Source: Planctomycetota bacterium (GTDB lineage Bacteria > Planctomycetota > MHYJ01 > JACQXL01 > JACQZI01). From it: a stretch of DNA of 17,211 nucleotides. The translations under genes and the position numbers were made by a program. Below, piece by piece: positions 141-17,211 of the stretch. Position 1 is the stretch's first letter; every line of letters begins with the position of its first letter. The stretch covers positions 1-17,211 of the forward strand of contig JACQZI010000042.1 of NCBI GenBank assembly GCA_016207825.1. The letters are read 5' to 3'. The notes under the pieces are model-generated. The model had not been told where the DNA came from and made no database searches. It saw nothing but the letters and a program-made list of their open reading frames with translations.

Positions 141-165
141 GCCCCCGAAGTGCAACGGAGCGGGG
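141..165 (+). repeat. GC-rich 25-bp repeat, copy A
   Basis: This 25-bp unit begins GCCCCCGAAG and ends GGAGCGGGG, with CCCCG/CGGGG ends able to pair. It is identical over all 25 bp to 11519-11543, which lies inside the ferredoxin gene. A diverged, inverted relative sits at about 17051-17075. Here it is intergenic, so the element is not confined to coding DNA. Confidence 0.75.
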
Positions 166-9223: not shown

Positions 9224-9700
9224 TTATGGATTAGACGGCTCCAGTTCTATGTTTATTTCCGCCGGGTAAAGCGTCCAGATGGCACCGGTGAAATGGTCGA
9301 CCAGGGCGGAAACCATTCCGATAGTCGTTCCCACGCAATGGATAGGCAGGAGCACTCCGTCAATAATCATGGCATTATTGGGACCCCGGCGTATGCCGCG
9401 CGTTACCGGATAATAACCTTTTTTGTCCACTTTAAGGTGATACTCATAACGCCTTTCGAGCGTTACCTTAGCCGGAGTGGTGACGACCATGGATACTTTC
9501 TTCCCGCAAGTTTCTTCTATGACAACCGTCGCGCCTTCAGGCTTGGTGTTGATTTTAATCCTCTGCGTGGTTCCGCTTATCGCCGTGGCGCAGCCGGTAC
9601 ATAGTAATAACCAAGCACTAAGAAACAATAACCAAACATTTGGGATTTGTATTTTGTGATTTGGAATCTGTTTGTTATTTGTATCTTGGAATTTGGTCAT
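9224..9700 (-). CDS. PEGA-like lipoprotein with repeat-derived signal peptide
   Basis: A 158-residue putative outer-surface lipoprotein. The body (from about 38) has the PEGA-like pattern KINTKPEGATVVIEE...VTTPAKVTL...YEYHLKVDKKGYYP, then a hydrophobic segment and a C-terminal beta strand. It is a close paralogue of the next gene upstream. The lipobox cysteine is C37 (CTGC, aligned with LSAGC of the paralogue). Residues 1-33, covering the whole polar n-region and hydrophobic core, are read entirely from the AT-rich repeat at 9602-9702. I chose the ATG at 9700, four bases after the stop of the upstream gene, with AAGGAAAAG as ribosome-binding site; a start at 9733 would overlap that gene. Probably translationally coupled to its paralogue. 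Function unknown. Confidence 0.8.
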   Translation of the reverse strand: MTKFQDTNNKQIPNHKIQIPNVWLLFLSAWLLLCTGCATAISGTTQRIKINTKPEGATVVIEETCGKKVSMVVTTPAKVTLERRYEYHLKVDKKGYYPVTRGIRRGPNNAMIIDGVLLPIHCVGTTIGMVSALVDHFTGAIWTLYPAEINIELEPSNP

Positions 9701-9702
9701 TA
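9602..9702. repeat. AT-rich mirrored repeat, copy 3
   Basis: The CAA-rich half (9603-9640, with AACAATAACCAAAC) is followed by a TTG-rich half (9641-9702) ending TTTGGTCATT (9692-9701). It shares words with copies 1 and 2. In reverse complement, 9608-9639 closely matches 3711-3743 (GTTTGGTTATTGTTTCTT). Unlike copies 1 and 2 there is no fhb gene beside it. It lies wholly within the 5' coding part of a lipoprotein gene. Confidence 0.8.
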
Positions 9703-9704
9703 TT

Positions 9705-10145
9705 TTACTTTTCCTTGTTAACCTCTTCTGCAACTTTTAACTCGATATTTATTTCCGAAGGGGAAAGCGTCCAGATAGCGCCGGTAAAGTGGTCGGCTCC
9801 ACCCAGGACCAAACCCATCAAAGTTCCCCACCAGTGGATGGGCAATATCACGAGGTCGCCGGCAACGGCCTTGTTGGGTTTCCTACCGATGCCGCGCCTT
9901 GCCGGATAATATCCTTTTTTATCCACCGTGACGTGGTAAGAATATTTCCGCGGGAGCTGGACTTCGGCAGGCGTGGTCAGGGTCATGGACACTTTTCTGT
10001 CCCAGGTTTCTTCTATGACCACGGTAGCGCCCTGAGGCTGGGTATTGATTTTAATTCTCTGCTTGGTCCCGCTTACCATCGTAGCGCACCCGGCGGATAA
10101 AACGCTTAAGAAAACCAAGCTTGCCAACAACACCTTAGGCATCAT
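9705..10145 (-). CDS. PEGA-like lipoprotein
   Basis: A 146-residue lipoprotein with a normal short signal peptide and a canonical lipobox, LSAGC (cysteine 20). The mature part carries the PEGA-like segment KINTQPQGATVVIEE...TTPAEVQL...YHVTVDKKGYYPARRG, then a hydrophobic, glycine-rich stretch and a SPSEINIEL strand. PEGA domains are beta-rich surface modules. It forms a tandem pair with the downstream paralogue, differing mainly in the signal peptide. The start is MetMet at 10145/10142. There is no clear ribosome-binding site, and the predicted promoter puts transcription initiation close to the start codon. Role unknown; envelope-associated by signal peptide. Confidence 0.83.
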   Translation of the reverse strand: MMPKVLLASLVFLSVLSAGCATMVSGTKQRIKINTQPQGATVVIEETWDRKVSMTLTTPAEVQLPRKYSYHVTVDKKGYYPARRGIGRKPNKAVAGDLVILPIHWWGTLMGLVLGGADHFTGAIWTLSPSEINIELKVAEEVNKEK

Positions 10146-11209: not shown

Positions 11210-12448
11210 TCAATTCGTTTTTGACTCGCCCAGGATATCGCCCTGGATACCGATAGTTATTTCCTTTGCCGGTATTTTCCTGCCGGAGGCTTCAAGTGCT
11301 TTCTGGGCAAGATAAACCAGTCCCGAACAGCAGGGCACCTCCATATGCAAGACCGTGATTGATTTTACACCGGACACCTTAAACATCTCGGTAAGCTTTT
11401 CAAGATAAGGCTCCGTATTATCAAGTTTCGGGCAGGCAATGACTAATGCCTTATCCCGTAAGAAATGCGCGTGGAAATTACCCCCTACCTTCGGTAGGGG
11501 ACTCCCATTTAATCGAGAGCCCCCGAAGTGCAACGGAGCGGGGCCGTAGGCGTAAGCGGTGCAATCCGCGGCAATGACCAAATCGCGCCCCTTTAAGAAC
11601 GGGGCATTTGGCGGAACCAGGTGCAGTTGTACCGGCCATTGGGTCAGCTGTGATTCGACCTTTGCAGATTTCGCTTCTTTTCCCGCTTTAAGCTTGGCAG
11701 AAAAACTGCGCATTGCCGTCCCTGGGTAACCGCTCCGATGCTCCGATGCGGAACGCCCCGCATTCCCGCCGAGGCGGTACATCGGGACGCAAGGCAGGCG
11801 TTCTTCTTTATGTTCTTCCCAAACAGGAACACTTATTTTATTTTCCTTGAGATAACCCAACGCCTGTTTCAGTAATTCATCCTGATTATGCTCTTTAAGA
11901 TGTTTCAAGTGGGCCTTGATGGTGTTTTCACCTGCCTTAACGATATTCGCCATGACTTTTCTTTCATCATAAGGCTCGGCTTCGCGTTCTTCCGTGGAAA
12001 TAGCGCCTTCGGGGCAATGGCCGATGCAGGCGCCGAGCCCATCGCAGAACAAATCGCTCATGAGGCGCGCCTTGCCGTCGATTATCTGCAAAGCGCCTTC
12101 GGGGCAGTTTGGGATGCACTCACCACAGCCGGTGCATTTATCTTCATTAATATGGATAATCTGCCTCTTCATTACTGTTTTCATATTCTCCTCCTTTTCC
12201 CCCTGAACACTTTTCGATTCGGGGTTTTCATTATTAATCTCTCTCCCGATACAATATTTCGCTGAAGAACACCATTCGGCGCAGCCGAGGTCAAGGCGCG
12301 GGTTGCGGAAACGATGCCCGCATTTGCCGCAACGGCGGTCAATATCGTCTTTCCAGAATTCGACCTTCGCTCCGCACTTAGGGCAATCGATATCGAAGAT
12401 ATCTTCCGGCTTCCAAAACCTCTTATCCTGTCCTGGACACTGTGCCAT
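11210..12448 (-). CDS. Zinc ribbon-ferredoxin fusion with two in-frame repeat insertions
   Basis: A 412-residue iron-sulfur protein, first gene of a redox operon. Residues 1-67 are a small Cys-rich module: a zinc ribbon (C22, C25, C40, C43) and LGCAEWCSSAKYC (C56, C60, C66). From about 95 a ferredoxin follows, with CTGCGECIPNCP (C105, C108, C111, C115) and an atypical second cluster site (C135, C141, C145). The C-terminal part has DLVIAADC, ALVIACPKLD and VPCC (C373, C374), typical of its anaerobe family. Met89 has a strong ribosome-binding site of its own, so the two halves were probably separate genes and a short product may also be made. Residues 221-241 and 303-323 are inserted GC-rich repeats. 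The start is the ATG at 12448 (MAQCPGQD); a TTG lies two codons upstream. Likely electron transfer, partner unknown. Confidence 0.87.
   Translation of the reverse strand: MAQCPGQDKRFWKPEDIFDIDCPKCGAKVEFWKDDIDRRCGKCGHRFRNPRLDLGCAEWCSSAKYCIGREINNENPESKSVQGEKEENMKTVMKRQIIHINEDKCTGCGECIPNCPEGALQIIDGKARLMSDLFCDGLGACIGHCPEGAISTEEREAEPYDERKVMANIVKAGENTIKAHLKHLKEHNQDELLKQALGYLKENKISVPVWEEHKEERLPCVPMYRLGGNAGRSASEHRSGYPGTAMRSFSAKLKAGKEAKSAKVESQLTQWPVQLHLVPPNAPFLKGRDLVIAADCTAYAYGPAPLHFGGSRLNGSPLPKVGGNFHAHFLRDKALVIACPKLDNTEPYLEKLTEMFKVSGVKSITVLHMEVPCCSGLVYLAQKALEASGRKIPAKEITIGIQGDILGESKTN
11480..11543 (-). repeat. GC-rich palindromic insertion 2 in ferredoxin gene
   Basis: About 63 bp, in frame, encoding roughly 21 extra residues (PAPLHFGG...PKVGG) between AYAYG and NFHAHFL. 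In relatives, as I recall them, the DCxxxAxx segment runs directly into the DFH segment. It holds CCCCTACC/GGTAGGGG (11482-11500), a perfect 8-bp stem with a 3-nt loop. It also holds the 25-bp unit 11519-11543, identical to 141-165. AATCGAG is shared with the region beside copy A. Confidence 0.75.
11726..11788 (-). repeat. GC-rich palindromic insertion 1 in ferredoxin gene
   Basis: About 57-63 bp, in frame, encoding VPMYRLGG...SEHRSGY between LPC and PGTAMRSF. It contains the stems ATGCGG/CCGCAT and CCGCC/GGCGG and the tandem word GCATCGGA. Its flanking words TCCCGATG and ATCGGAGC also occur at 16815-16822 and 16893-16900 in the GC-rich block at the right end. It is a different repeat from insertion 2. 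Confidence 0.7.
12182..12195 (-). promoter_or_regulatory. Strong internal ribosome-binding site in ferredoxin gene
   Basis: AGGAGG (12195-12190) lies five bases before an in-frame ATG (12184-12182), codon 89 of the fused gene. It is the best ribosome-binding site in this operon. It marks the probable original start of the ferredoxin (MKTVMKRQIIHINEDKC). No stop codon separates it from the zinc-ribbon module. Confidence 0.75.
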
Positions 12449-12518
12449 AATCAAAATACCTTTCTAAGTTTCAGGTTTAAAGTTATAAGTCAAACTCTCT
12501 TTGTCCCTTTCCGCCAAT

Positions 12519-16930: not shown

Positions 16931-17211
16931 GATAAGCAAAAGGATAAGATTGAGAATAAGAAATAATAACATTTTTTTTCTTTATGGTTATTCGTCATCT
17001 CAGCAAGGATAACTCTTCGTTAATTCAATGGTAACGATTAATTATTACAAGGGTTGCGCTTCATTGCTTCAGGGGTGTCCCTGCTCTGTTGAATAATTTT
17101 TATAAGTTTCTTCTTTCGGTTTATTAGCTGTTTTACCTCTACGCTATGGCTTTTTCTTTCCGATAACCTCTGCTAACAAACTTAAACAGATTCATTATGT
17201 TACCCTTAAAC
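16931..17211. other. Gene-free right end
   Basis: AT-rich, with no convincing gene. GGATAAG occurs twice near 16930-16950, and a run of T follows at 16972. From about 17040 the sequence is an inverted, diverged relative of the left end of the window. A minus-strand ATG at about 17195 opens only 18 codons and is not supported. Confidence 0.55.
17051..17200 (-). repeat. Inverted diverged copy of the left-end repeat
   Basis: Read on the minus strand, 17098-17079 matches 120-139 at 19 of 20 positions. It is followed, as on the left, by a CCCC-GAAG-CAA-G-AGCG unit (about 17075-17054) resembling the 25-bp repeat at 141-165. Minus-strand 17200-17189 (ACATAATGAATC) matches 9-20 at 11 of 12. The order and approximate spacing are conserved (99 and 90 bp between the two matching words). 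Confidence 0.6.

Follow-up and report, generated by a model that had tools for sequence, protein, structure and literature searches.

In-frame coding palindromes were first seen, and have mainly been described, in the genus Rickettsia, whose members are intracellular and have reduced genomes; intragenic REPs are found in scattered species. Rickettsia palindromic elements (RPEs) are dispersed palindromes that lie between genes and, in frame, within conserved genes (Ogata 2000, 2002; reviewed in PMC10969869 and PMC2229807). RPEs are 105-146 bp long and have been found in frame in 19 genes, and a guanylate kinase interrupted by one is active though altered (PMC2229807); those of R. conorii carry CGTC at one end (PMC3733652). 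The GTAG/CGTC REPs are single hairpins with a conserved end tetranucleotide, the GTAG types being tied to RAYT genes; some REPs are intragenic, most of them in R. conorii and in Opitutus terrae, which belongs to the same superphylum as the organism considered here (PMC3733652). The bacterial MITEs NEMIS, ERIC and RUP possess terminal inverted repeats and a target duplication (PMC2229807).

The element that we describe resembles RPEs in being a dispersed palindrome that lies in frame in conserved protein genes and adds a short peptide. Unlike RPEs, it is mostly 54-63 bp rather than 105-146 bp long and has an unrelated sequence, and, unlike those of R. conorii, only 19 of its 109 copies have CGTC no more than 8 bp from an end. 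Whereas RPEs belong to intracellular alphaproteobacteria, this element belongs to a planctomycete; the DeMMO mine site is the source of its sister genome. An earlier reading made from the letters of this DNA alone (hereafter, the sequence-only reading) had likened the element to RPEs, and the likeness holds in the sense of "works like", with lineage, sequence, size and end tag all differing. It is also like the GTAG/CGTC REPs, which are short palindromes, often paired and in some cases within genes; unlike the GTAG types, it carries GTAG in only 29 of 109 copies, and no linked RAYT gene was found. Like the MITEs, it is small, non-autonomous, high in copy number and sometimes fused in frame; unlike them, it lacks a target duplication in clean filled/empty pairs of sites. 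Its ends read CCCC/GGGG, and no autonomous partner was found in the two transposase families searched. On the best reading, with translation inferred, it represents a new family of mobile, protein-coding palindromes that behave like RPEs and are unrelated, shorter and untagged. We class it among the in-frame coding palindromes, as neither RPE nor REP and without a recognised sequence relative. No literature account of such elements in Brocadiia or other planctomycetes was found, in a search that left most subscription literature outside.

The window, i.e., the whole stretch of 17,211 nucleotides analysed, is the entire contig C42 of a 2.89-Mb draft genome (the host genome below); all genomes used are draft assemblies. 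Its relevant features are as follows.

141-165, plus strand: intergenic partial copy of the element, hairpin 3 only (sequence match).
11210-12454, minus strand: host gene, 4Fe-4S ferredoxin-like protein (ORF, orthologue alignment).
11481-11543, plus strand: three-hairpin element, 63 bp, 21 residues (sequence, covariance model, orthologues).
11482-11500, no strand assigned: hairpin 1, CCCCTACC-TTC-GGTAGGGG, perfect 8-bp stem (sequence, fold).
11501-11520, no strand assigned: hairpin 2, ACTCCC...GAGAGC (fold, nesting in other copies).
11521-11543, no strand assigned: hairpin 3, CCCCGAAGTGCAACGGAGCGGGG (genome occurrences; inner stem covaries across copies).
11731-11787, minus strand: second in-frame insert, about 57 bp, 19 residues, boundaries +/- 2 (orthologue alignment; repeats in other genera).

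The sequence-only reading had placed an in-frame insert at 11480-11543 and credited it with a perfect 8-bp stem and about 21 added residues in a ferredoxin. The insert is real and in frame, its start having been set one base too early, and both the stem and the 21 residues were recovered. Oriented opposite to the gene, the 63-bp element encodes PAPLHFGGSRLNGSPLPKVGG, which falls between YAYG and NFHAHFL of the ferredoxin-like protein. Orthologues were gathered from 59 related genomes and 13 were aligned; all 13 lack these residues at the exact point (reading ..YAY-[A/G]NFH.. or similar), so the segment is not shared by the family. When the 63 bp are removed, the flanks ATTA and CCGTA rejoin to give TAC GGT AAT TTC (YGNF), and the orthologue L016 (AYAYGNFHQDFL) also reads YGNF at this point; this fixes the length of the insert at exactly 63 bp and shows no trace of target duplication. 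The ferredoxin part of the gene has a probable start ATG at 12184, preceded by a strong ribosome-binding site, AAGGAGGAG. It was also observed that a zinc-ribbon-like upstream frame (12185-12454, minus strand) continues without a stop into the ferredoxin frame and is a separate ORF in the orthologues L012 and L013.

Copies of the element were found at many sites in the host genome. Its 23-mer core, corresponding to hairpin 3, has 10 occurrences at up to 3 mismatches, against 0 for a reversed-pattern control. A covariance model built from seven copies gave 129 matches at E <=1 (the two strands of one palindrome being counted twice) and 71 at E <=0.001, which merge into about 75 related sites, lying both between genes and in frame inside them, as the sequence-only reading had anticipated; usual lengths are 54, 57 and 63 bp. 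The copy in the ferredoxin gene scores 82.3 bits (E 8.7e-20). Neither of the two outcomes that would have refuted the sequence-only reading, a segment common to the whole family or a 25-bp unit absent from the rest of the genome, was observed. The sole other genome of the genus, Candidatus Brocadiia DeMMO3_52 (the sister genome), yielded 72 matches over 1.2 Mb of sequence, the assembly being 56% complete. Because 57 more distant relatives gave one weak match in total and seven other genomes of the order none, the family is restricted, in this sample of relatives, to one genus of Candidatus Brocadiia. That the insert is an ordinary variable loop of the ferredoxin-like protein is extremely unlikely: loop length does vary elsewhere in the protein family, e.g., upstream of the conserved WPVQL, but the absence at the exact point in every aligned orthologue, and the membership of this DNA, with a high score, in a repeat family of about 75 sites, speak against it. 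As a separate observation, an intergenic palindrome, GTGGTTAGGACTATAGTCCTATACCAC or near-identical, often stands beside element copies (L010, L004, L100, L103, L129).

The 25-bp unit at 11519-11543 is indeed identical to 141-165, an identity from which the sequence-only reading had argued for recent mobility. Movement is supported, by filled and empty sites; the identity alone is weak evidence for it, since the intergenic copy comprises only hairpin 3 and adjoins a repeat that forms contig ends. It is followed, at about 166-182, by what appears to be the right-hand part of an older, outer copy. The right end of the window (17072-17211) matches the beginning of contig C31 (L010) in reverse complement, and next to the partial copy at 141 lies a stretch related to it, 112-146 (ATTATTCAACAAAGCAGGGTG); this longer repeat, which forms contig ends next to partial elements, is perhaps an insertion sequence.

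Filled and empty sites were observed directly. The sister ffh contains 54 bp (CCCCATTC...GCGGGA) between GGCG and G, where the ffh of the host genome is empty; the sister NfeD gene contains a 57-bp copy between GACTCCCTA and TCATCGGG, within an older copy common to both species; and a pair of paralogues in the host genome differs by a 117-bp (39-codon) insert between TTCAG and CCACC, in which one copy is nested in another. No target duplication was found in these clean pairs. The element is likewise missing from the other species' orthologues of GuaA, MurG, BioB, CysS and KsgA, with junctions that are not base-precise because the surrounding sequence has diverged or lies within other repeats. 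In addition, an identical 54-mer occupies two unrelated sites in the sister genome, which, together with the species-specific ffh insertion, is a stronger sign of movement than the copy at 141-165. The notion of a variable loop is refuted by the dispersed copies and the filled/empty pairs.

Of 97 full copies, 79% have a purine immediately before the element and 90% a pyrimidine immediately after it. Many intergenic copies sit within other repeats, and removal of the element rejoins the host repeat, for example GCCA with CTAAGACTCAAAGGCAC and CCACAAAGGCA with CAAAGGACAC. The loop of hairpin 2 is itself a nesting site for further copies: a regular-expression count gave six cases of nesting at the same point of this hairpin, and L063 and L079 resemble them by eye. 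The inner pairs of hairpin 3 change together (A-T or G-C at one; C-G, T-A or T-G at the other), and in 37 distinct sequences they are paired in 35/37 and 37/37 cases, where shuffles average 26.3 and 30.8. The observed value was reached in 0/2000 shuffles, which is not a probability, as the copies are related. This points to selection or copying that acts on the folded strand. By folding energy, most single copies are no better than shuffles; covariation is the better test.

The insert in the ferredoxin gene is very probably a copy of a non-autonomous, mobile, GC-rich three-hairpin palindrome that has multiplied in one genus of the planctomycete class Brocadiia and is translated in frame. It goes in bluntly at new positions, mostly with a purine before it and a pyrimidine after it, and leaves no target duplication. 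The insertion would probably be performed by a trans-acting enzyme working on single-stranded hairpins; this single-strand mechanism is inferred and would explain both the missing duplication and the preference for palindromes. A true REP/BIME mobilised by a RAYT (Y1) transposase is an improbable though not negligible candidate. The hairpins and duplication-free insertion agree with it, and intragenic REPs are known (PMC3733652), but neither GTAG nor CGTC is conserved as an end tag in the proportions given above (<=8 bp from the end), and only a fragment turned up when the host genome was searched for a Y1 transposase. An IS110-type transposase was absent from five genomes, so that searches limited to the Y1 and IS110 families have not found the mobilising enzyme. 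In the sister genome, the Y1 match is an IS200-like gene with hairpins of its own, about 400 bp from one copy and not bounded by the element. As mobilisers, RAYT and IS110 transposases are not supported by the genome searches.

Copies inside genes, among them core genes of the signal-recognition particle and tRNA synthetases, were assigned with Pfam and NCBIfam. In the host genome they lie in genes for an ECF sigma factor, CysS, PheT, KsgA, NnrE, a thymidylate-synthase-like protein, a GH57 enzyme and NfeD; in the sister genome, in those for Ffh, MurG, GuaA, BioB, a spermidine-synthase-domain protein and NfeD. The element residues are unmatched or gapped against solved homologues of Ffh, KsgA, MurG, BioB, GuaA, NnrE and CysS. 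Among copies with both flanks coding-like on one strand, 20 are in frame and 2, both weak-scoring, are out of frame; the in-gene copies listed contain no stop in the frame of the gene. Copies occur in either orientation, more often that of the gene, and in each of the three phases. Openness as such is not special, with a mean of 3.9 of 6 open frames per copy against 3.4 of 6 for shuffles. An in-gene copy would survive if its length is divisible by three and it presents a stop-free frame, selection would purge frame-breaking copies from needed genes, and survivors are inferred to be read through as an extra surface loop of about 18-21 residues that the protein tolerates. Mobile DNA thus appears to be translated into housekeeping proteins of these bacteria, an inference that rests on frame retention, with no support from transcripts, ribosome profiling or peptides. 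A further insert-like stretch, FPSPFPLPQGERVRERV, was noticed near residues 200-220 of the MurG of L082; it is absent from a solved MurG, which suggests another repeat family in the same gene.

Two ways in which the inserts might never reach the mature protein were weighed. Excision as RNA or protein, by a mini-intron or intein, is barely conceivable: the location in conserved genes would suit it, but 54-63 bp is too short, an Rfam search of the window gave no match, and the element also has intergenic copies. To our knowledge, known self-splicing introns and inteins are far above this size. Translational bypass, in which the ribosome skips the inserts as in Magnusiomyces mitochondria or phage T4 gene 60, is very doubtful. 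Hairpin-rich inserts of similar size in many conserved genes speak for it, and Magnusiomyces mitochondria likewise carry short inserts in many protein genes, but those inserts break the frame and are skipped (PMC5009743), whereas the element keeps it in 20 of 22 cases. The lack of stops in the frame of the gene also counts against bypass, although in-frame bypass cannot be excluded from DNA. A translated mobile palindrome remains the preferred reading, and its significance is that a family shorter than and unrelated to RPEs does likewise in a planctomycete genus, in ffh, cysS, pheT, murG and guaA. With before/after sites from two genomes of the same genus, duplication-free movement and peptide production become testable, as does the share of mobile DNA in protein length variation. 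A warning follows that mobile DNA can lie behind "lineage-specific insertions" in such proteins.

The second insert in the ferredoxin-like gene comprises the residues VPMYRLGGNAGRSASEHRS, without counterpart in the aligned orthologues, which read LPC-GCPG. The corresponding DNA (about 11731-11787) occurs once in the host genome and belongs to a palindromic family different from that of the 63-bp element, with repeats resembling it in two other genera of the order. In those genera, the family is found in frame in RecR, where it separates the two zinc-finger halves; it is also present in the ORFs of SelA, an iron-sulphur/flavoprotein subunit and an FG-GAP protein. One copy of this second family (L189) occupies a host-repeat position, between GGCA and CAAAG, that is also used by the first. 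The presence of the second family in recR and selA of other genera and the position common to both families hint at order-wide machinery, by which several unrelated hairpin families would be bluntly inserted into the same kinds of site (other palindromes, the element's own hairpin-2 loop and genes) and core proteins continually lengthened; we offer this only as a tentative possibility.

Two further observations concern other genes. The trypsin-like paralogues L042 and L055 are about 85% identical, and a 148-bp stretch around a CACNAAG palindromic repeat is 99% identical between them, as if converted or recently copied. Within the window, two adjacent genes at 9224-10145 (minus strand) encode similar small lipoprotein-like proteins, their DNA being 73% identical over 227 bp.
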